Below, in pieces: positions 14,967 through 34,291 of a stretch of DNA of 36,244 bases. The stretch is from a virus. The notes under the pieces are model-generated. The model ran no database searches. It worked only from the letters and a program-made list of their open reading frames with translations, and was not told the origin of the DNA. How positions within the stretch are numbered: the first letter of the stretch is position 1; the number at the start of each line of letters is the position of its first letter. The DNA lies in the IMG/VR virus record IMGVR_UViG_3300045974_000047, positions 1 to 36,244 of that record; one strand, given 5' to 3'. Both the position numbers and the translations under genes were made by a program.

Positions 14967-17900
14967 ATGAGGATTAAAGACCTCCCGGAGACCACGACGG
15001 TAGACAACCTAGTTGACTACATGGTGGTGGACCGTGGCCTTACGCCACAGACGTTCCGCATTAAGGTCGGTAATCTGCTGGCTACGCTTACCGGAGGAGT
15101 GATTAACAACACCCCCATAGGCAACTTGGTTCCTAGCACCGGAGCATTCACTACTTTATCTTCCTCTGGGCTTGCTACGCTCGCACACTTGTCTACCTCT
15201 GACGCAACGATCACCGGAGGAAGCATAGATGGGACTCCCATTGGTGCGACAACCCCATCAACTGGCAACTTCACATCTGTCGCCGTTTCGAGTGTCGCAG
15301 TCCCAACGATCAGCAGTGTCAGCATTCTCACGAACAAGACCCTTGCGCTTGGGTCGAACACAGTATCTGGCACTCTGGCACAGTTCAACACCGCAGTAAC
15401 AGACGCAGACTTGACTTCTCTTGCAGGTGTTGAGACACTAACAAACAAAACGCTTACCGCGCCAGTTGTCACGGATTTAGCAGGGACTGCAAGCAACTTA
15501 TCCCTGTCAGCCATCAGCAAGTCCCTGCATTACGGTGCGGTGGTGAAGTCGATCATCTACGACACCAGCAAAGACAGCGATGGCGGCGCATGGCGCAAAC
15601 GCTGCTCTGACAAGTCTTGGTACACCGAATCTCTCGGCTTCACCGGCACATGGGGTGGACAGGCTGCAAGTAACGCACTCGGTTGGGCTGCGGTAGGCTC
15701 GGTAACGGGTGGTGCGTATCAGTCAACGGCAGACGGTAAGTTCTACACGCCAACCTCGGTTAGTACGCAGACTGAAATCTTCCGTGGCAACGTGCGCGAG
15801 TTCCCCGAGCAAGTGTCAATCGTGGCTGAGTCTGCGCGGGTGGTGGTCTATGACCTGACGCAAGTTGGCACGCCGATGTGGATGGTGTTTACTAGAAGCG
15901 CACTAAATTGGCTGCGCTCTGGCGGAGCATCGTCGTTATCATCTGTGGCCGCATCAAATGGGTTGCTGCTTGCGGGTATGGCAGACTCACTTGTAGAAAT
16001 CAATTTCATTTCAGAAACTGGATTCTTTCTTGCTCCAAGTACATACAAGTCAAATGGCCTTATCTCAAGTAGAAACGCTGGCCTTGGGTTTGTGTCGTTT
16101 AGCGCAACTGCCATCGTCAACTCCACAGTCAACGATGTAGCCCTAACTGTCCTAGACACCGCCCCAATCGACCCCGCAACGGGCCTGCCTGTGCCGACTA
16201 TTGCTGTGGCTACGGCTGGTGGCGTGTCGGTGATTAAGGATGATGGGACGGTGGCTAATTACGTCACCGGGGCTTGGAGCCAGATCGCATGGATGAATCA
16301 ATCTACGCTGGCTGGTCGCCGTGGCAGTGCATCTAATAGCAACTACGCAACATTTGAGCTACTGTCTTATCCAGCACTTTCAAGTACACAGATAACAACA
16401 CCAGCTACGCTGTCAACTACATTGACAACTGATGTGACGAACAGATCAGCTACGAACAGCTTGGTTGTGTTTAACGCTGGCGATAAGGGTGCTAGTCTCT
16501 TAAAGCACAACCCCGCCACTCCCGCCAAAGGCATGGTGTCCTACATCACTCAAGCCTACAACACCGGCTGGATGCCCGGCGACATCAGACTTGCAGCTTT
16601 AGCAGACACCACGGCTGAGACGATCACAGCCAGCGGTGAGTTGGTGACGAATGGGGACTTTCCGACTGCGACTACGGGGTGGAGCGCACCGGCAGCGTCT
16701 GCCAATGTTGGCGGCGCAACGTTGTCTATCGTGTCGGCAAAGTTGCGCGTCACGAACGACGCCACTGGAACCAACTTCGGTTGTGCAATGCAGGCGATTA
16801 CAACCGTCGTTGGCAAGACGTATGTGATCTATGGTGAAGTGACAAACGGTACGGCCAATGGCGCTCTTGCAGTCGGCAACGTTGGTAGTGGAAGTGGCAT
16901 CAACAATATCCTCGCAAACAAGCCAACTGGCGCATATACCTTTGTGGCAGCCGCCACAACAACATATGTTGGCTTTGCAGCAACGACTTCAACGGCATCT
17001 GGAACTTTTGATTGCGACAACATCAGCGTCAAACTAGCCGACCCTGACCGCAGCGTGAAAAATACGGGACTCGTCCTCAACGGATCACTCACCAAAACCG
17101 CCGTGGCTTCGGGTGCAGGGCTGGTGGCTTACAGCGGGTTCAGTGCATCGAACTACCTTGAGCAACCATACTCAAGTCAGCTTGATTTTGGTACGGGTGA
17201 TTTTTGCGTGATGGGGTGGTGCTATGTCACAGCGGGAGACCAGCCTCTAGTATTCAGAGCGGTTGACGCATCAGTAACAAACCCAACAAACGGAATAAAT
17301 CTTTGGGCAAGTTCTGGTACGCAAATAAAGTCTTGGATAAATGGCACAGCACTAAATACCGCTGCTGGAGTGACCAATGCATCTGCGTGGAATTTCATTT
17401 GCGTGTTTCGCTCTGGAGCTACAGTTTACATTTATACGAACGGTGTACTCGCAACTAGCGGAGCAAACTCTGGAAGCATCACACTCGCAAATGCGAAGCT
17501 GCAACTAGGTGTAGGTTTTTACACAAATTTCAGTCAGCAAATGGCCCTCTGGCGCATCAGCGCAACCGCCCCCAGCGCAGACCAGATAGCCCACATCTAC
17601 CTCACTGAGTTGCCACTGTTCCAAGCTAATGCCAAATGCACGATTGACGGAACCAGCACCGCAGTCACAGCACTGGCCTATGACGATGTAGCCGACACGC
17701 TGCACGTAGGTACATCATGGGGCCGTACAGCCTTCCGCGATCTGCTACGTGTTGACTCTGAGGCAACGACCACTGGTGCGCTTACAAGCCTCTCTGCGAA
17801 CGAGGGTGCAGTAGTTACGGGTGGTGCATCCTCTGGTCGCTTCTATCAGCCTGCGCTCTTGCTGCGTGACGAGCTACGCCGAAAAGACATATCTAGAAAA

Positions 17901-18134
17901 GCGTTGGGCAAGATACCTGTGCCGTTTGACTACACGGCTACGGCCTCACAGACAGCGTTCATTCTGCCCAAGGGCTACACGGCAAAGACCTTCGCAAAGA
18001 ACGGCACGTTCGTGCGAGAGGGTACAGGCACACCAAACTTTGTGCGTAGTGATGATGGATTCGCAGAAACGCTAACTCTGTCTGCCGGTGCAACGGTAGG
18101 CGATTGGGTGCAGATCATGGCGGTGCGCAAATGA
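14967..18134 (+). CDS. Large tail fibre with CBM-like and LamG-like domains (1055 aa)
   Basis: The N terminus (MRIKDLPETTTVDNLVDYMV) resembles the attachment motif of the 680-aa fibre. Two GTPIG/STG-type repeats follow (NNTPIGNLVPSTGAFTTLSS; DGTPIGATTPSTGNFTSV). A central part (about 178-550) starts with YDTSKDSDGGAWRKRCSDKS. About 554-690 looks like a carbohydrate-binding jelly roll (ELVTNGDFPTATTGW). About 697-884 looks like a laminin-G/concanavalin-like domain (YLEQPYSSQLDFGTGDF; WNFICVFRSGATVYIYTNG). It likely binds host glycans. It is coupled to the following membrane protein by ATGA. The domain calls rest on motif appearance only. Confidence 0.8.
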   Translation: MRIKDLPETTTVDNLVDYMVVDRGLTPQTFRIKVGNLLATLTGGVINNTPIGNLVPSTGAFTTLSSSGLATLAHLSTSDATITGGSIDGTPIGATTPSTGNFTSVAVSSVAVPTISSVSILTNKTLALGSNTVSGTLAQFNTAVTDADLTSLAGVETLTNKTLTAPVVTDLAGTASNLSLSAISKSLHYGAVVKSIIYDTSKDSDGGAWRKRCSDKSWYTESLGFTGTWGGQAASNALGWAAVGSVTGGAYQSTADGKFYTPTSVSTQTEIFRGNVREFPEQVSIVAESARVVVYDLTQVGTPMWMVFTRSALNWLRSGGASSLSSVAASNGLLLAGMADSLVEINFISETGFFLAPSTYKSNGLISSRNAGLGFVSFSATAIVNSTVNDVALTVLDTAPIDPATGLPVPTIAVATAGGVSVIKDDGTVANYVTGAWSQIAWMNQSTLAGRRGSASNSNYATFELLSYPALSSTQITTPATLSTTLTTDVTNRSATNSLVVFNAGDKGASLLKHNPATPAKGMVSYITQAYNTGWMPGDIRLAALADTTAETITASGELVTNGDFPTATTGWSAPAASANVGGATLSIVSAKLRVTNDATGTNFGCAMQAITTVVGKTYVIYGEVTNGTANGALAVGNVGSGSGINNILANKPTGAYTFVAAATTTYVGFAATTSTASGTFDCDNISVKLADPDRSVKNTGLVLNGSLTKTAVASGAGLVAYSGFSASNYLEQPYSSQLDFGTGDFCVMGWCYVTAGDQPLVFRAVDASVTNPTNGINLWASSGTQIKSWINGTALNTAAGVTNASAWNFICVFRSGATVYIYTNGVLATSGANSGSITLANAKLQLGVGFYTNFSQQMALWRISATAPSADQIAHIYLTELPLFQANAKCTIDGTSTAVTALAYDDVADTLHVGTSWGRTAFRDLLRVDSEATTTGALTSLSANEGAVVTGGASSGRFYQPALLLRDELRRKDISRKALGKIPVPFDYTATASQTAFILPKGYTAKTFAKNGTFVREGTGTPNFVRSDDGFAETLTLSAGATVGDWVQIMAVRK

Positions 18135-23846: not shown

Positions 23847-24836
23847 ATGGCAGGACAAGTTTGGGCAGTTAACTCACTCGGTGGCTTTATGTATAGCCGC
23901 CAGTTGAGCAATGTGCTTCGCATGGCGGTGCAGCCGCTGGTGAAGTTTCGTCAGTTCGCTGACGTTCGTGACGCAAGCCAACAAGGCAAGAAGAAAGGTG
24001 ATATCTTCACCTGGGACGTGTTCTCTGATGTGGCAACCGCAGGCGGTGTGCTGACAGAAACCAACACGATGCCTGAAACCAACTTCACCATCACTCAGGG
24101 CACCCTGACCGTGACGGAAGCTGGCAATAGCGTCCCCTACTCTGGTAAGCTGGACAACCTGTCCAAGTTCCCAGTGCAAGAACTGATTCAGAAGGTTCTG
24201 AAGAACGACGCGGTCAAGACCTTTGACCGCTTGGCTTGGGCACAGTTCAACACTACGCCCCTGCGGGTTATCCCCACTGCTGGTACTGATACCGCAGCTC
24301 TCACGCTGACCACCAACGGCACCGTCACAGGCACCAACAACATCGCGTACAATAACGCGCATGCCAAGGCGCTGACTGATTTGATGAAAGAGCGTAATAT
24401 CCCCGCCTACTTGGGTGATGACTACTACACTCTAGCATGGCCTACCACTCTGCGCACCTTCAAGAACAACTTGGAAACTATCCATCAGTATAGCGATACT
24501 GGCTTCAAGCTGATCATGAACGGTGAAATCGGTCGCTACGAAAACAACCGTTACGTTGAGCAGACCAATATTGCCAAGGGCAACGGCACTACGGGTATCG
24601 CTACCGCTGTGGGTGGTGACATGGCTGCATGGACTAATGCTAAGTCGGACTGGATGTTCACATTCGGTAATGACACTGTGGCAGAAGCCGTAGCAGTCCC
24701 TGAGGAAATGCGCGGTAAGATTCCTACTGACTTCGGTCGTAGCAAGGGCGTCGCGTGGTACTACCTCGGCGGCTTCGGTATTGTTCACACTCTCGCTGCC
24801 AATGCTCGCATTGTCAAGTGGGATTCTCAAGCGTAA
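23847..24836 (+). CDS. Major capsid protein, N4 gp56-like in appearance
   Basis: The ATG at 23847 (AAAGGAG upstream) gives 329 residues, a usual coat length. The N-terminal arm is AVNSLGGFMYSRQLSNVLRM, followed by AVQPLVKFRQFADVRDASQQ. The central LKNDAVKTFDRLAWAQF, HAKALTDLMKERNIPAYLGD and LIMNGEIGRYENNRYVEQT look like the N4 gp56 coat family of HK97-fold proteins. It sits directly after the scaffold. A mosaic of N4-like coat with P22-like portal and adaptors is unusual but plausible. The family call is by eye. Confidence 0.8.
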   Translation: MAGQVWAVNSLGGFMYSRQLSNVLRMAVQPLVKFRQFADVRDASQQGKKKGDIFTWDVFSDVATAGGVLTETNTMPETNFTITQGTLTVTEAGNSVPYSGKLDNLSKFPVQELIQKVLKNDAVKTFDRLAWAQFNTTPLRVIPTAGTDTAALTLTTNGTVTGTNNIAYNNAHAKALTDLMKERNIPAYLGDDYYTLAWPTTLRTFKNNLETIHQYSDTGFKLIMNGEIGRYENNRYVEQTNIAKGNGTTGIATAVGGDMAAWTNAKSDWMFTFGNDTVAEAVAVPEEMRGKIPTDFGRSKGVAWYYLGGFGIVHTLAANARIVKWDSQA

Positions 24837-24848
24837 GGAGCGCAAATC

Positions 24849-25250
24849 ATGGCACAGAAGCAACAAGCATACGACCACCCCATGTATCTGGCAGTATTGC
24901 CAGTGGCTACGGGTCAGGTCAACGGCAATGCCGGTACATCCACCAAGTTCGCTGCGTTCTTGGATATGAAGATCAAGTCTATCGCGCTCCGTGCGACGAC
25001 CGCTGGTACTTCGGCCGACGTTGTGAACATCGTCCAGGTATCTGGTACGACCACAACCACCACCGCCTATGGCACTATCGGCTCCGGCGCGGCTACCTCG
25101 GGCGTCAGCTTGACTCCCGCTACCGCCGCTTCGCAAGTCTCGGTGTCTCAAGGCGACTTGTGGTACGTGCAGAAGGGTACAGATGCTACAGCCACCTACG
25201 TCGGTATGGTGGAAGCAGTCATCAACCCCTCTGCTAACCCCACCATCTAA
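24849..25250 (+). CDS. Beta-rich, probable capsid decoration or structural protein (133 aa)
   Basis: This 133-residue, Thr/Ala/Val-rich protein with almost no charge (VSGTTTTTTAYGTIGSGAAT, SQVSVSQGDLWYVQKGTDAT) looks like a compact beta-sandwich. AAGGAG lies upstream. Its place just after coat fits a head decoration protein or a minor head protein. No family is recognised with confidence. Confidence 0.7.
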   Translation: MAQKQQAYDHPMYLAVLPVATGQVNGNAGTSTKFAAFLDMKIKSIALRATTAGTSADVVNIVQVSGTTTTTTAYGTIGSGAATSGVSLTPATAASQVSVSQGDLWYVQKGTDATATYVGMVEAVINPSANPTI

Positions 25251-25263
25251 GGAGTAGAGCAAA

Positions 25264-25527
25264 ATGGCAAAAGTACCTTCCACTGACATCAAAGGGATGT
25301 CAAGCCACAAGGGAGCCGACACCGAGATGGTTGGCTTCCTTACCACGGGCTACTTGGACAAGCGTGACACCCCTGTTGGTGAAAACGCGCAGTTCAACTG
25401 CATGCCTCCAGGCATGGATATCACGAACCAGATCATGACTGAGCAGCACCCCATGCCTATGAAGACTTTGGTTGGCACTAGCTATCCAGGCGATGGCTGG
25501 GGCGGTAGCCGTGATATTCCCGAGTAA
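25264..25527 (+). CDS. Small Met/Pro/Gly-rich protein with MPPGMDI motif (87 aa)
   Basis: This 87-residue protein has MAKVPSTDIKGMSSHKGADT, GYLDKRDTPVGENAQF and then FNCMPPGMDITNQ at about residues 44-56. The last motif is repeated almost exactly in the next gene, so the two are likely to be diverged paralogues or partners. TAAGGAG precedes the ATG. Virion function unknown. A terminator follows 22 bp after the stop. Confidence 0.7.
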   Translation: MAKVPSTDIKGMSSHKGADTEMVGFLTTGYLDKRDTPVGENAQFNCMPPGMDITNQIMTEQHPMPMKTLVGTSYPGDGWGGSRDIPE

Positions 25528-25548: not shown

Positions 25549-25579
25549 GCGGGCGCTCCAGTGGGGTGCCCGCTTTCTT
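25549..25579 (+). terminator. Rho-independent terminator after the coat block
   Basis: GCGGGCGCTCC (25549-25559) pairs with GGGGTGCCCGC (25563-25573), with two G-U pairs and an AGT loop, giving an 11-bp stem. TTTCTT (25574-25579) follows. It stands between two genes that share a motif. It would reduce transcription into the second structural block relative to coat. Confidence 0.85.
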
Positions 25580-25592
25580 ATGGAGAATCAAA

Positions 25593-25949
25593 ATGCTACA
25601 AGAAAAGTTTGAGATTACCGTGCCTAACCGGAAGGAAGAGGGCGGCGCATGGGTTAGTTTTGAGTCTGCACGTGAGACTCAGGGCATTGACACCACATGC
25701 TTCAATGACATGCCCCCCGGCATGGATATCAGTGCTCAGCACGGCACTCAGCAACCAAGCATGCCATTCAGTCTGGCCGGAGTTACGGACGTATCGTGCG
25801 AAGACGCTAGCGCCAAGGCATTGACCGAAGGGTTTAGTACTAAGAAGATGAAAGGGTGTGACGATCAGTACACTGGCGAACACGTAGACCACTTCTACGG
25901 TGACGCTGGTGGCTTTGCTGAGCGTAACAACTATCTAGATCGCCTGTGA
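25593..25949 (+). CDS. Small protein with MPPGMDI motif, paralogue of upstream neighbour (118 aa)
   Basis: I chose the ATG at 25593 because GGAG lies 7 bp upstream and an earlier ATG would sit inside the terminator. The 118-residue protein carries CFNDMPPGMDISAQ at about residues 36-49, matching CMPPGMDITNQ of the 87-aa protein. It also has SFESARETQGIDTTCFN and an acidic, Gly-rich C terminus. The following methyltransferase starts at an overlapping GTGA. Function unknown, probably virion-associated. Confidence 0.7.
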   Translation: MLQEKFEITVPNRKEEGGAWVSFESARETQGIDTTCFNDMPPGMDISAQHGTQQPSMPFSLAGVTDVSCEDASAKALTEGFSTKKMKGCDDQYTGEHVDHFYGDAGGFAERNNYLDRL

Positions 25950-26461
25950 CTAAGCCTGAATCCGTCGTTGGAGAAAACGTCATCGAGGCAATGCTCCAGA
26001 CGTTGAAGACTACGCCTGCGGAGGGCTGCATCGTAGAAGTAGGCGTGTATAGGGGCGGCACTCTGTGGCATCTGGTTCACAATGCTGAGGGGCGCCCCGT
26101 TTATGGATACGACACGTTTGGTGGCATGCCGTTCCAAGACGAAGGCGACAGCCACAGGGTAGGCGACTTTGCCGACACGTCACTAGCGGCGGTGCAGGCC
26201 GCAGTGCCAGACGCAATTCTGATTAGCGGAACGTTCCCACGTTCGCTGATAGAAATGCCATCAATTGCGTTCGCGCACGTTGATTGCGACCAGTATCAGT
26301 CCATTAAAGACTGTATCAACGTGCTTGGCCCTAAGATGCTGGCAGGCGGCGTAATGTGGTTTGACGACTATGGATGCCTACCCAGTGCTAACCGCGCAGT
26401 GGATGAGGCGTTTGGTAAGGGCAGGCTAATAATGAGCTCCAAGGCTTTTGTGAGGTTCTAA
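25946..26461 (+). CDS. TylF/macrocin O-methyltransferase-like class I SAM methyltransferase (171 aa)
   Basis: The 171-residue enzyme has VEVGVYRGGT (30-39) as the SAM-binding loop. YGYDTFGGMP (53-62), FAHVDCDQYQSIKDCI (109-124) and VMWFDDYG (136-143) follow. These fit the TylF family of sugar O-methyltransferases that need metal and act on glycans. The GTG start overlaps the upstream stop. Its position in the structural operon suggests it modifies a glycan on a virion protein or the host surface. The real substrate is unknown. Confidence 0.85.
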   Translation: MTKPESVVGENVIEAMLQTLKTTPAEGCIVEVGVYRGGTLWHLVHNAEGRPVYGYDTFGGMPFQDEGDSHRVGDFADTSLAAVQAAVPDAILISGTFPRSLIEMPSIAFAHVDCDQYQSIKDCINVLGPKMLAGGVMWFDDYGCLPSANRAVDEAFGKGRLIMSSKAFVRF

Positions 26462-28565: not shown

Positions 28566-29402
28566 ATGTCACTACTCCTCGCCCTAGTAGGTGGCGGCGG
28601 GGGGCTAGTCACCGTAAGTGCCAGTCCAGGCTCATTCACTTGGTCGGGCACCACAGCTAATATCCCTCTACAGGTCACGGCTACTGTAGGCGCATGGACT
28701 TGGGCAGGTACTACCGCCACCATACCCACGCAGATTACCGCAGGCATTGGCGCGTGGGGCTGGGCAGGTACTACAAGCAGCATCCCCGCACTGGTAAGCG
28801 CCTCAGTAGGAGCTTACGCATGGGTAGGCACAACGGCGCAGGTGCCGTTGCAAGTCCAAGCTACAGTGGGCACGTACTCATGGACAGGCAGCACAGCCAG
28901 CGTACCTACTCTAGTCAATAGCGCGCCCGCCAGCTACACATGGTCAGGCATCACAGCGCAGGTGCCTATTCAGGTTACTCAGACCCCTGCGGCCTACACA
29001 TGGGCTGGTACGACTGCCAGCTTTGGCGGCGGGGTGATCACCGTCAACTCTACTCCTGGTCTGTATAGCTGGGATGGTCTATCGTCATCTACGCTGACGC
29101 AGGCTATCAACCAGACAGTAGCTAGCTATACGTGGGCGGGTACGACAGCAGGCATTACGCAGAACATAGCGGCTAGCGCAGGCGCGTATACGTGGGTGGG
29201 CACTACTGCAACCATCACGCAAGTAGTAAATCATGTCTTAGGAGCATTCACGTGGGCGGGCACCCCCGCTACAGTGACAGTACCTGGAGGGGCTATACAA
29301 GCCACGGCTGGAGCGTATAATTGGGCGGGGCGCGCAGCTACATTCGGCAGTAGTAGCGTCAAAGGAAACACAGTCCGTGCCGGTATCTGGAACATAATAT
29401 GA
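28566..29402 (+). CDS. Protein of twelve 20-residue W-G-T repeats (278 aa)
   Basis: From about residue 18 to 265 the protein consists of twelve units of about 20 residues, each with the pattern GxYTWxGTTAxxxxQ. Examples are SASVGAYAWVGTTAQVPLQV and AASAGAYTWVGTTATITQVV. The aromatic and Gly positions are fixed and the rest varies. It likely forms an extended beta-array, as in surface-exposed fibres. The ATG follows the upstream stop after one base and has no Shine-Dalgarno, so translation is coupled. A binding or spacer function on the virion is inferred. Confidence 0.8.
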   Translation: MSLLLALVGGGGGLVTVSASPGSFTWSGTTANIPLQVTATVGAWTWAGTTATIPTQITAGIGAWGWAGTTSSIPALVSASVGAYAWVGTTAQVPLQVQATVGTYSWTGSTASVPTLVNSAPASYTWSGITAQVPIQVTQTPAAYTWAGTTASFGGGVITVNSTPGLYSWDGLSSSTLTQAINQTVASYTWAGTTAGITQNIAASAGAYTWVGTTATITQVVNHVLGAFTWAGTPATVTVPGGAIQATAGAYNWAGRAATFGSSSVKGNTVRAGIWNII

Positions 29403-29974: not shown

Positions 29975-30337
29975 ATGGCAAAACTGAACTTTAAACAACC
30001 CTATGGCGTGGTCTACGGACACGACATTATCCGCTACACGCAGGAAGGCAAGAACTTCGACCCGCGTGGCGAAGAGATCGTACCAGCCAAAGTGGCACCC
30101 CCTAAAGTTCAGAAGCCAGATATTACCGCAACCCCCACGGCTTTAGACAACGCTAAGTCGTTTCTTATTCAGATTCTCAAAGAGAACCCGCTCAGCAAGT
30201 CAGCCATCTACAAGGAAGCCGAGAATAACAACTACAATTGGAATGATGTGCGTGACGCTGCCATTGCCTTAGACATTGCTAAGTTCACACAGAAGAATTT
30301 AGAAATGTGGCGTCTCCCAGAGGGGGCCACAGCATGA
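29975..30337 (+). CDS. Protein with C-terminal winged-helix-like domain (120 aa)
   Basis: The 120-residue protein has a beta-rich N terminus (FKQPYGVVYGHDIIRYTQEG), then a linker rich in Pro/Val/Lys. The helical C-terminal part (NAKSFLIQILKENPLSKSAI, YKEAENNNYNWNDVRDAAIA) looks like a winged-helix module. GGAG precedes the ATG. DNA binding is possible but not proven. Its stop overlaps the following fusion gene as ATGA. Confidence 0.65.
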   Translation: MAKLNFKQPYGVVYGHDIIRYTQEGKNFDPRGEEIVPAKVAPPKVQKPDITATPTALDNAKSFLIQILKENPLSKSAIYKEAENNNYNWNDVRDAAIALDIAKFTQKNLEMWRLPEGATA

Positions 30338-31881
30338 CTTGGGACATCAGCGCACCTTATAAAGCGGAGAGTAAGAAGATTGTCTGGCATGTAGCCAAGT
30401 ACCTTCGAGGTCGTGGTCTAGACATTGGCGCGGGGGACTTCCGTGTGTTGCCCCACGTAATCACAGTGGACAACATGCACCACGCGATGTTCGGATTTAC
30501 TAATAAGCCGGACATAATGTCGGAAGCGCATGATCTTGCTATCTTTGGTGATCAGAGCATGGACTTTGTGTATAGCAGCCACACGCTAGAGCACGTTGAA
30601 GATTACAAGGGCTGCTTGAAAGAATGGTGGCGCTTGGTCAAGGTGGGCGGCTACCTAGTGCTGTACCTACCCCACAAAGACTTCTATCCTAACATCGGAG
30701 AAAATGGGGCAAACCCAGACCACAAACATGACTTTCTACCTGATGATATTATTGGGGCTATGCCTTCTGGTTGGGACTTACTAGAGTGTGATGAGCGCAA
30801 CCAAGACGATGAGTACAGCTTCCTGCTTGTATTTAAGCGCCTACAAGGCAATAAACGCCACCGCAGCCACCAAGCCCCCAAGCCAGCAAAACGGGCCGTT
30901 GTGGTGCGGTATGGCGCGTTTGGCGACCTCTTGCAAAGCAGCAGTGTGTGGGCGGGGCTTAAAAAGCAAGGCTACCACGTAACGGTGATGTCAAGTCTAC
31001 CTGGAGCGCAGGTAATTGAGGCGGACCCCAACATCGATGAGACTATTCTCTTTGATAAAGACCAAGTACCTAACGCCAATCTAGTAGACTTTTGGCGCTA
31101 CCAGAGAGGGCAGTATGACAAGTTTGTCAACCTCAGCGAAACCGTTGAAGGCACCTTCCTCGCCATGCCTGGACGAGCCAATCACACTTGGGCTCCCCTT
31201 GTACGGCACAAGCGAATGGACGAAAACTATGTGGCCTTCCAACACGAGCTCGCAGGCGTACCTCACGAACCTGCAATCAAATTCTACGCCACGCAAGCCG
31301 AGAAAGATTGGGCTATTAAGACTCGCAAGTCTTATGGTAGCGGTCCTGTCGTTGTTTGGAGCCTTGCTGGCAGTGCAGTACACAAGACATGGTCTGGTCT
31401 TGATGCTATGCTCGCTAGCTTACTTCTGCACTATGTTGACAGCACTATCGTACTGGTTGGAGGACCAGAGTGCGTCATACTAGAAGCTGGATGGGAGAAT
31501 GAGCCACGGGTGGTGAAGACTAGTGGGGTGTGGTCTATTCGTCAGTCACTTAGCTTCTTAGAGCAGGCTGACTTAATAGTAGGCCCTGAGACCGGGGTGT
31601 TGAACGCGGCAGCTAATATGGAGGTACCGAAAATTGTCTTCCTCTCCCACTCTACACATGAAAACCTTACCCGAGATTGGATCAATGTGTTTCCACTATC
31701 TAGCGTGGGCACTACTTGTCCGGGCCGTGGTGCTGACGAGGCCCCGGCTTGTCACCAGCTTCACTATAGCTTTGAGTTCTGCAAAAGAGACGACCATACC
31801 GGAACCGCTCAGTGTCAAGCTGATATCTCAGAAGGGCTGGTTTGGGAAACAATTGAAAGGGCACTGAATCATGGCAACTAG
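30334..31881 (+). CDS. Fusion of SAM methyltransferase and family-9 glycosyltransferase (515 aa)
   Basis: The start at 30334 (ATGA overlap) replaces an earlier out-of-place ATG at 30307. Residues 1-170 are a class I methyltransferase: LDIGAGD (29-35), TVDNMHH, SSHTLEHVEDYKGCLKEWW (81-99), VGGYLVLYLPH. A Lys/His-rich linker (170-187) joins it to a GT9 (heptosyltransferase-like) domain: VVRYGAFGDLLQ (190-201), SLAGSAVHKTWSG (343-355), LVGGPE (374-379) and VGPETGVLNAAA (416-427). These are the nucleotide-sugar and acceptor motifs of the ADP-heptose class. It probably modifies a glycan or lipopolysaccharide-like acceptor. The substrate is not known. Confidence 0.85.
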   Translation: MTWDISAPYKAESKKIVWHVAKYLRGRGLDIGAGDFRVLPHVITVDNMHHAMFGFTNKPDIMSEAHDLAIFGDQSMDFVYSSHTLEHVEDYKGCLKEWWRLVKVGGYLVLYLPHKDFYPNIGENGANPDHKHDFLPDDIIGAMPSGWDLLECDERNQDDEYSFLLVFKRLQGNKRHRSHQAPKPAKRAVVVRYGAFGDLLQSSSVWAGLKKQGYHVTVMSSLPGAQVIEADPNIDETILFDKDQVPNANLVDFWRYQRGQYDKFVNLSETVEGTFLAMPGRANHTWAPLVRHKRMDENYVAFQHELAGVPHEPAIKFYATQAEKDWAIKTRKSYGSGPVVVWSLAGSAVHKTWSGLDAMLASLLLHYVDSTIVLVGGPECVILEAGWENEPRVVKTSGVWSIRQSLSFLEQADLIVGPETGVLNAAANMEVPKIVFLSHSTHENLTRDWINVFPLSSVGTTCPGRGADEAPACHQLHYSFEFCKRDDHTGTAQCQADISEGLVWETIERALNHGN

Positions 31882-32821
31882 CGGCACGTATTCCTTCTCA
31901 GTAACGCGCGATCAAATCGTGCGTAAAGCCCTACTAGACATCAAGAAGATTGACGGCATTGACCCCATCGACCCCACGGTGATGTCGGACTGTGTCTTCA
32001 ACCTTAACCTACTAGTCAAGCAGTGGCAGGGCAAGGCAGACTTTGCGCCGGGGCTTAAGGTGTGGACCCGTAAAACGGGGCACTTGTTCCTCCACAGCAC
32101 CACGGGCGAGTACGCACTGAGTACGACCTACGCTGGCTGGGCGTACAGCCCCGTACAGACTGCCACAACCGCCGCGCTAGCGGCTACAGCTACAGCAGTA
32201 GCGGTGTCTAGCATTGCAGGTATGACCGTTGGGGACCACATTGGGGTGCAACTTGATACAGGAGACCTATTCTGGACCACAATCGCGTCGTTCGGTACGC
32301 TGACGGTGAATTCGAGCGCCGGTCTACCGAGCTCTTCAGCCAGTGGAAGCGTGGTATTCACGTATACGTCCACACCGCAAGCCCCGCTCATAGTAGAGAC
32401 TGCCACCCTGCGCGACATCAACTACGCAGATACCCCGCTGAACATCATGCAGCGGCGAGACTACGACTTCCTGCCAAATAAGGTCAGCCCCACCAACTAT
32501 GGCGACCCCACTGCTATTCTGTATGAAGCTAACTTGGGGTACGGCACCTTGTATACCGACATTGCTGGTAGCAATGACACGTCTAAGCACATCGTGTTAA
32601 CGTTCATGGAAGCTATACAGGACATCATAAATAATACGGATACTCCATACTATCCGCAAGAATGGTTCCGCCCCCTGTGCTGGGGTCTGGCTAAGGAGTG
32701 TGCCCCTATGTTTAATGCTAAGTGGACCCCAGAAATGGAGGCTAATTACAACGATGCTCTTGGGATTGCCAAGCATAAAGACCCTGAGATAGAGACTCGT
32801 TACTTTCAATCTGGAGAATAA
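31871..32821 (+). CDS. P22 gp4-like head-to-tail adaptor with inserted beta domain (316 aa)
   Basis: The 316-residue protein starts with DQIVRKALLDIKKIDGIDPI and the helix CVFNLNLLVKQWQGKADFAP. It ends with FMEAIQDIINNTDTPYYPQE and a helix, as in tail-accessory gp4-like proteins that sit under the portal. It is about twice the length of P22 gp4. An insert (about residues 95-175: AATATAVAVSSIAGMTVGDH, FGTLTVNSSAGL) looks like an added beta domain. It overlaps the fusion gene by 11 bp and is followed directly by the gp10-like gene, as in P22. Confidence 0.75.
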   Translation: MATSGTYSFSVTRDQIVRKALLDIKKIDGIDPIDPTVMSDCVFNLNLLVKQWQGKADFAPGLKVWTRKTGHLFLHSTTGEYALSTTYAGWAYSPVQTATTAALAATATAVAVSSIAGMTVGDHIGVQLDTGDLFWTTIASFGTLTVNSSAGLPSSSASGSVVFTYTSTPQAPLIVETATLRDINYADTPLNIMQRRDYDFLPNKVSPTNYGDPTAILYEANLGYGTLYTDIAGSNDTSKHIVLTFMEAIQDIINNTDTPYYPQEWFRPLCWGLAKECAPMFNAKWTPEMEANYNDALGIAKHKDPEIETRYFQSGE

Positions 32822-32824
32822 GAA

Positions 32825-34291
32825 ATGGCCTTACAGCCCATCAACCTATTCGGCATGGGCTTAAAGGCCGACAGCGCAGTACTCGCTAGTGAATCTAGAC
32901 TTAACTGCTACTACGACAGTCGACAGACCGACGCTGGCAATACGATAGCTGTACGGGGTACTCCCGGTAGCTACAATATCCCCATATCGCCGGACTACAT
33001 TCCTAACGGAATTCACGTCGTAAATGGAGTTCTATACTTCACTGCCACCGGGGGGCTGTACTCTTGTGATCTTTCGGGGGCGGTGACGTATTTAGCACCC
33101 GGAAACTTTGGATTCCCATACACCGTATTTGCTGATAACTATGTGCAGCTAATGCTAGGCCCCGGTCCCGCAGGGCAGTACTACATCTATACGATTGCAA
33201 CTGGCGTACTAGCCCAGATTGTAGATGTTAACTTCCCTGCTAGCGTACAGAGTATTGACTTTATTAGTGGTAGATTTGTAGCCGTAAAGCGCAACACGCG
33301 GGAGGCCTACTGTAGCGCCGCCCTAGACGGTATGACGTGGACGTATATAGGACTACCCCTGTTCTTTACAAAAGAACAGGCTAGCGACGCACTATTCGCG
33401 GTTAGTGCCCACAACGGAATTCTTACACTATTCGGTAACGATAATTTAGAGTTTTGGCAGGATGCTGGACTGCAACCCGTACCGTTCCAATACATTACAG
33501 GCTCAGCACAGGCTTACGGCACCAAGTCGCTATACAGCATAGCCCAAGTTAACGACGCTACCTACTTCCTTGGACATGGGAACCAAGGTGGATATGCCGT
33601 GTATAGCATCAAGGGGTATACGGTAAAGAAAGAGTCAACCTCCGACATTGATGATATACTAGCCCTATGGGTTAAGAATGGAGCTAGCTTCCGGTACACC
33701 CACGGGGTTGCCTTTAATAATCACGGTCATGACTTTTACATGCTTAATGATGTGGGTAGTGGCACTCTAACGCTGGATACCACCACTGGCTTATGGAGTA
33801 CGATGCTCACAGGAAATACGAGCAATAGTCAGGTAAATGCTACCAGTGTAGGTCACTATGCCACTAAGGCTGTTCTGTTTGAGGGTGTAAACGTATTCAT
33901 GGGGTCTCTGTTCAGTGGCAATACTACACTATACGCCTTCGACCAAGAAGTTAACACAGACGCCGGGGTGTCTATTCAGCGTCAAGTTACCACCAAGCAC
34001 ATTCGCAATGGTGGTAATGAGTTCTCTATTACTGAGCTTGTTCTTCTTATGGACATAGGTGAGGTGCCCCTAACGCAGGACTACCACATCACTTTAGAGG
34101 TTAGTAAGGACGGTGGGCGCACATTTGGCAGTCCACGCCCACGCACGTTGGGTCTCACAGGTCAGTACAAAGACCCACAGGTGAAGTGGCAGCGGCTTGG
34201 TAGTGCTAAAGACTTCGTTCTACGGTTCACTATGACCGACAATGTTCCATTCGTAATTGCGAGCGCTGAGATTGAAACCTCGGTGAATTAG
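32825..34291 (+). CDS. P22 gp10-like packaged DNA stabilisation protein
   Basis: The 488-residue protein has MALQPINLFGMGLKADSAVL, SRLNCYYDSRQTDAGNTIAV and repeated VNGVLYFTATGGLYSCD-type strands. These form a beta-propeller-like tail adaptor as in P22 gp10. The YGTKSLYSIAQVNDATYFLG and TKHIRNGGNEFSITELVLLM regions are typical. It plugs the portal/gp4 channel and holds packaged DNA. GGAG precedes the ATG. Length and position agree with the P22 model (gp4, then gp10). Confidence 0.85.
   Translation: MALQPINLFGMGLKADSAVLASESRLNCYYDSRQTDAGNTIAVRGTPGSYNIPISPDYIPNGIHVVNGVLYFTATGGLYSCDLSGAVTYLAPGNFGFPYTVFADNYVQLMLGPGPAGQYYIYTIATGVLAQIVDVNFPASVQSIDFISGRFVAVKRNTREAYCSAALDGMTWTYIGLPLFFTKEQASDALFAVSAHNGILTLFGNDNLEFWQDAGLQPVPFQYITGSAQAYGTKSLYSIAQVNDATYFLGHGNQGGYAVYSIKGYTVKKESTSDIDDILALWVKNGASFRYTHGVAFNNHGHDFYMLNDVGSGTLTLDTTTGLWSTMLTGNTSNSQVNATSVGHYATKAVLFEGVNVFMGSLFSGNTTLYAFDQEVNTDAGVSIQRQVTTKHIRNGGNEFSITELVLLMDIGEVPLTQDYHITLEVSKDGGRTFGSPRPRTLGLTGQYKDPQVKWQRLGSAKDFVLRFTMTDNVPFVIASAEIETSVN

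Follow-up and report, generated by a model that had tools for sequence, protein, structure and literature searches.

A methyltransferase-GT9-type glycosyltransferase fusion conserved among the head genes of a mostly uncultured phage lineage

What is the role of a gene which joins a methyltransferase (MT) to a glycosyltransferase (GT) resembling bacterial heptosyltransferases, and which is located among the head genes of a phage? This question is raised by a viral DNA record (IMG/VR IMGVR_UViG_3300045974_000047; 36,244 bases, analysed as a whole and hereafter referred to as the window), which is probably a fragment, with its last gene running off the end. An initial annotation had described a 515-aa fusion of both domains within a head/tail operon, just before gp4 and gp10-like genes. 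The gene order of the window, i.e. terminase small and large subunits, portal, major head protein, small genes, the fusion gene, the gp4-position gene and Hc3 (Table 1), agrees with that setting: terminase genes and matches to portal (1.5e-26) and capsid (1.3e-16) proteins lie upstream and Hc3/gp10 (2.6e-54) downstream. Of the two named neighbours, the gp10/Hc3 gene was recognized by sequence, whereas the name gp4 for gene 31871-32821 reflects its position only, as its sequence matches just an unnamed PHROG and a structure search gave no solved-structure match. RNA-family and tRNA searches of the window yielded no matches.

Table 1 Features of the window discussed in the text (coordinates in the 36,244-base window)
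Feature	Coordinates	Strand	Basis
Major capsid protein	23847..24836	+	phrog_1357 major head protein 1.3e-16
Thr-rich beta protein encoded next to the capsid gene (3' side), candidate acceptor	24849..25250	+	composition, conserved stretch, model
TylF-like O-methyltransferase gene, capsid-to-gp4 segment	25946..26461	+	PF05711 50.1 bits vs cut-off 23
Variable repeat protein, possible surface protein	28566..29402	+	about 8 repeats of the GAYxWxGTTA type (e.g. GAYTWAGTTA); 18% Thr, 9% Ser
Conserved small gene directly 5' of the fusion	29975..30337	+	synteny; ATGA overlap with the fusion gene
MT-GT9 fusion gene	30334..31881	+	single open frame, 515 aa; 80 related viral loci; AF2 pLDDT 93.1
Class I SAM methyltransferase domain, residues 1-175	30334..30858	+	Methyltransf_11 4.2e-10; conservation; Foldseek to class I MTases
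GT9-fold glycosyltransferase domain, residues 183-512 (G194, G197, D198, K351, E419-T-G, N424)	30880..31869	+	Foldseek 3tov, 1psw, 4rap; conservation
Four-cysteine cluster C462, C473(H474), C483, C494, putative metal finger	31717..31815	+	conservation; TibC likeness
gp4-position (head-completion) gene	31871..32821	+	phrog_12985, function unknown; position is that of the head completion adaptor of Vibrio phages
Head closure protein Hc3 (P22 gp10-like)	32825..34291	+	phrog_578 2.6e-54; 7eeq/9vyg needle-head/stabilization proteins

The fusion gene is translated without stops over its entire length. An alternative earlier start (GTG 30307) is present in the same frame; ATG 30334 is taken as the start because M1 and W3 reach 90% conservation or more in the alignment of relatives, because a GAGGGGG stretch precedes it by about 10 bases, and because it shares bases with the stop of the preceding gene (ATGA). 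At the other end, the next gene begins (31871) before the fusion gene has ended. The small gene directly upstream also has a homologue in cultured relatives that lack the fusion. An AlphaFold2 model, for which 34 fused sequences served as input, reached a pLDDT of 93.1 and a pTM of 0.88 and resolved the protein into an MT domain (residues 1-175) and a GT domain (residues 183-512). The two-domain organization proposed earlier was thus confirmed by the single frame, the Pfam hit of the MT half and the Foldseek matches of both folds, and all of the motifs quoted for it are present: LDIGAGD (residues 29-35), HTLEHVEDY (83-91), VVRYGAFGDLLQ (190-201) and VGPETGVLNAAA (416-427).

A scan of viral contigs with the fusion protein revealed 80 viral loci encoding relatives, which excludes chance, and the MT-GT arrangement is common to no fewer than 70 non-identical proteins of viruses or prophages. 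A frame-choice artefact was ruled out, since every fused relative has an unbroken single frame. The fusion is real and widely conserved. The full protein had no relative, even at E 1, among 50,697 phage records, and neither had a divergent siphovirus-type GT described below. In a viral structure library, the best matches to the model were RfaF-like proteins and MTases of uncultured phages, each standing alone, and none of the 50 matches listed spans the whole query as one such fusion.

The N-terminal half exceeds the cut-off of Pfam Methyltransf_11 (PF08241; 40.6 bits vs 21.2, 4.2e-10, residues 61-110), and in the Foldseek search its part of the model matched class I methyltransferases. Across 50 sequences, identity is 97% or higher at D30, G32, G34, D46, D77, S82, H83, E86 and H87, with the glycine-rich SAM motif I and the acidic motif II (D30, G32, G34, D46) being retained. 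By Pfam score, fold and motifs, this half belongs to the class I SAM methyltransferases.

For the C-terminal half, Foldseek retrieved 3tov (6.7e-14), 1psw (1.5e-12) and 4rap (7.9e-8), as well as 6dfe and 2h1h, with WaaF (1.5e-12), WaaC and TibC (about 1e-7) among these GT9-type matches. According to the model, the GT half has the GT-B fold of the WaaC/WaaF type and its best solved relatives are GT9 enzymes. The window protein remains below the cut-off of Pfam GT_9 (PF01075; 14.7 bits vs 22, E 0.02), among the 34 fused relatives 29 gave a Glyco_transf_9 match with E up to 0.1 (best 2.5e-10), and one relative (L072) passes the cut-off of PF01075 with 25.2 bits. D198, K351 and E419 are present in all 90 GT sequences and G194 and G197 in 89 of them, with identities among the GT halves of relatives going down to 34%; in sequence alignments D198 falls on the GD motif of 3tov and E419 on the N-D-S-G motif of WaaF. 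Both folds were thus matched, and the catalytic residues are conserved in the homologues. The designation "GT9 heptosyltransferase-like" holds for the fold, whereas the cut-offs for LPS heptosyltransferases were not reached and the donor motif differs, being E-T-G...N in the fusion family in place of the usual D-S/T-G...H. Against the equivalogs of LPS heptosyltransferases I, II and III (TIGR02193, TIGR02195, TIGR02201) the window GT gained at best 14 bits vs 185.3, and by these curated cut-offs, with its score far below every one of them, it was rejected as an LPS heptosyltransferase. By profile, assignment to BAHT was likewise rejected, as the TIGR04414 cut-off was not reached (one of 43 members matches, at E 0.057). 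Cysteines 462, 473, 483 and 494 all occur in 90 of the 90 GT sequences, and in divergent GT members they are arranged as CxPCHxxH...C...C. WaaF also has such a cysteine cluster, so that it may be a general GT9 feature.

To follow the gene across phages, the capsid protein was used as an independent anchor. All 34 loci with both capsid and gp4-position genes carry both domains (29 fused and 5 split). In two capsid-anchored loci (L118 and L138), the 8-10 kb of sequence beyond the capsid gene contain neither a gp4-position neighbour nor the fusion, and the three cultured relatives examined (HelliStehle and two Vibrio phages) have no fusion between the capsid and head closure genes. The fusion is nearly a fixed gene of one mostly uncultured podovirus-like lineage. 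In bacterial genomes, a pattern scan gave 16 loci (2 with the GT only). The full-length fusion was found in 9 of 398 sampled Pseudomonadota genomes, in all nine cases beside the capsid-region genes of this lineage, and no cellular locus other than such prophages contained it in this sample; each of 7 host genomes has exactly one copy. Fusion-bearing prophages reside in culturable Paraburkholderia, Aromatoleum and Pseudothauera. A diverged fusion occurs in another setting in four prophage-like loci (L091, L092, L093 and L095): in L092, a distant siphovirus-type module, it is placed between a different capsid protein (2.1e-114) and an Hc1/tail terminator gene, and in L091 and L095 a tape measure gene follows downstream.

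Not all relatives are fused. In one subclade, the MT and GT are separate genes with another gene between them, and in L049 the insert includes a pectate-lyase-like protein. In a quick tree, the ten rows of the split clade are placed, with starred support, inside a mostly fused set, which disfavours split genes as the ancestral state and makes a later split by gene insertion likelier in that clade. Other arrangements include two different GT9 genes flanking a single MT gene in tandem (GT, MT, GT; L074:2034-4608), which suggests a two-sugar glycan, and an additional MT and GT in L088. GT-only relatives are found in L072, L075-L080 and L096, and therefore the GT can work without the MT half.

The segment between the capsid and gp4-position genes is variable among relatives. 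Its 72 non-redundant proteins include nine of the TylF, three of the GT2 and one of the FkbM family, five HNH endonucleases, and one each of the lectin-like, pectate-lyase-like, cellulase and BclA_C families. FkbM/TylF methyltransferases and GT2 enzymes are inserted at L149:3538-4338, L165:3891-5239, L019:2312-3430, L026:3961-4986 and L164:5179-6189. HNH homing endonucleases are common in this segment, and in an Aromatoleum prophage (L089:7091-9097) a stretch of about 1 kb interrupts the major capsid gene and may be an intron or a homing element. The slot occupied by the fusion in relatives holds, in L138 (11691-12838), an aspartyl/asparaginyl beta-hydroxylase and a GNAT acetyltransferase, with an ATP-grasp (GARS-like) protein later; this is possibly another kind of protein-modifying set.

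In the window, the segment contains a second methylase (25946-26461), a gene separate from the fusion, of the family of TylF, NovP, CalS11 and MycF sugar O-methyltransferases, its solved relatives being NovP, CalS11 and mycinamicin III 3''-O-methyltransferase. The protein encoded directly after the capsid gene is 15% Thr (family mean 15.6% vs 4-10% in other families scanned), its family has a conserved SGTxTTT stretch (with T67 and T69), and its predicted structure is all-beta (pLDDT 86.9). A structure search with this model gave no confident fold match, and so it cannot be named a decoration protein; a cupin assignment was dropped (E 0.053, below the cut-off). The family was not detected in several loci carrying the fusion, and we infer no more from these data than a candidate acceptor. 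Repeat genes similar to 28566..29402 are present in L098 and L151. Two neighbouring small proteins (25264-25527 and 25566-25949) have a common MPPGMDI motif, are conserved across the lineage and may be paralogues. A 1055-aa protein (14967-18134) with a concanavalin-like (Laminin_G_3) domain is encoded between the terminase and portal genes, where a fibre-like gene would not usually be expected.

Further indications came from cellular relatives. The best cellular matches to the fusion (398 Pseudomonadota genomes) fall on the MT half, and in 5 of the 6 cellular regions inspected the single-domain MT relative lies a few genes from two heptosyltransferase-like genes. With curated profiles, waaF was above the cut-off in L204 and L205, and waaC was above it in L205 and just below it in L204, where a TylF gene and a glycosyltransferase are also beside the MT relative. 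The best single cellular MT match (L203) is surrounded by unrelated genes. As a group, the MT relatives, with their waaF/waaC neighbourhoods, point to a glycan substrate.

Set against known systems, the fusion is GT9-type by fold and would be most like TibC if its acceptor is a protein. With the GT9 heptosyltransferases WaaC, WaaF and 3tov of Veillonella (PF01075) it has in common the GT-B fold, the catalytic Asp of the GD motif, a conserved Lys and the C-lobe (D/E)-(S/T)-G; unlike them, it is fused to an MT and has E-T-G...N and, unlike LPS heptosyltransferases, it falls far below the equivalog cut-offs and is encoded in phage structural operons. TibC and Aah (BAHT) are ADP-heptose-using enzymes, and TibC is a protein heptosyltransferase; they resemble the phage GT in the GT-B fold, and TibC also in four cysteines of the C-lobe with a CxxC...C...C pattern, which are invariant here and in TibC form an iron finger (Cys339, 342, 358 and 370; PMC4358343). 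They differ from it in that the window protein has an expanded Cys spacing, does not match TIGR04414 and, in the model, starts with a methyltransferase instead of an N-terminal beta-barrel. A stand-alone RfaF-like protein of an uncultured phage (BFVD A0A6J7WHE7, 296 aa) has the viral GT9-like fold (1.0e-14) without the MT half. We know of no MT fusion among the virion glycosyltransferases of mycobacteriophages. These enzymes, of another virus group with other hosts, resemble the fusion in the proposed outcome, a glycosylated virion, and are reported to glycosylate virion proteins (Freeman et al. 2023, as cited in PMC10955285).

How might the fusion act? Most likely, it both attaches a sugar and methylates it. 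An ADP-heptose-type donor is usual for GT9 enzymes. In the scheme that we infer (donor, order of steps, sugar O-methylation and virion target alike), the GT9-fold half would transfer a sugar from a host nucleotide-sugar donor to an acceptor, with D198 as the catalytic base and K351 and E419 at the donor phosphates and sugar; the MT half would then O-methylate the transferred sugar with SAM, and the fusion would ensure that sugar transfer and methyl capping go together. The acceptor would most likely be a virion surface protein of the same operon (the Thr-rich 24849 protein, the variable beta-repeat or fibre proteins), and in some relatives the extra TylF, FkbM and GT2 enzymes may extend or cap the glycan. 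A gene kept in this place among capsid and head-completion genes should be expressed late, along with those for the virion, whereas genes for lysogenic conversion are as a rule active in the prophage. Three observations make a virion protein a more likely acceptor than LPS: two virus types keep the gene firmly within their late structural genes, bacterial copies occur only in such prophages in the sample examined, and variable Thr/Ser-rich and carbohydrate-related proteins surround it. We give an even chance to a late-expressed glycosyltransferase and sugar methylase decorating virion proteins. Gene context favours virion decoration and the MT relatives favour a glycan substrate, with LPS left open.

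LPS could be the target since GT9 enzymes and the cellular MT relatives are otherwise linked to it, and it is kept as the main rival target chiefly because those relatives, found in waaF/waaC operons, point to a glycan substrate. The methylated sugar would then be added to the host LPS core (or to a lipid-linked glycan) late in infection, with the benefit that released progeny avoid binding to debris or that superinfecting phages are excluded. This is rather unlikely: the location within the late structural block of two virus types, and not in a lysogeny or early region, the 14 bits obtained against a cut-off of 185 and active-site motifs differing from those of WaaC/WaaF argue against it, even though WaaC/WaaF have this GT9 fold, several of the closer MT relatives in cells are located in waaF-waaC operons with TylF, carbamoyltransferase and GT2 genes, and the cultured relative HelliStehle depends on O-antigen as its receptor (PMC11990801). 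There is a smaller chance that the halves are simply joined or neighbouring enzymes whose substrates differ, the MT acting on protein, tRNA or a small molecule and the GT on another target, as the existence of GT-only relatives and of one well-supported subclade with split genes and a gene between them might suggest; however, the split clade keeps both genes in the same segment and nests inside fused clades, L074 holds GT, MT and GT in tandem, and the wider island is rich in sugar enzymes.

A catalytically dead protein with a structural or assembly role is very improbable. The fixed position among head genes and the altered GT motif (E for D, N for H) would suit such a role, but the residues of both catalytic sites show little or no variation even between deeply diverged sequences, and the gene is missing from cultured relatives with a homologous capsid protein. 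Phage GT-B enzymes which glucosylate DNA are known (the T4 glucosyltransferases), and the fusion might in the same manner glycosylate modified phage DNA; given its capsid-linked position, a closest fold of GT9 type and no Pfam base-hydroxymethylating enzyme among the window proteins scanned (a part of the genes), this is the least probable of the explanations considered.

Returning to virion decoration, a broader form of it, which we advance tentatively and with the balance against it, is that the near-core fusion provides a lineage-wide methylated-sugar coat of the virion, with an LPS-core-type ancestry re-aimed at phage proteins in a TibC-like manner. The waaF/waaC neighbourhood of the cellular MT relatives suggests the origin of such enzymes. 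The GT9-type fold and phage virion glycosylation are known. Neither the joining of MT and GT9 domains nor the near-core position of such a gene in a group of phages was found described in the open literature (most subscription journals lying outside it), nor any paper there treating heptosyltransferase/GT9, methyltransferase and phage together. Few phage systems are known in which the virion is glycosylated. Because the fusion occupies one and the same position in no fewer than 34 environmental loci, and also occurs in prophages whose hosts can be cultured, the question of capsid glycosylation and methylation becomes testable.
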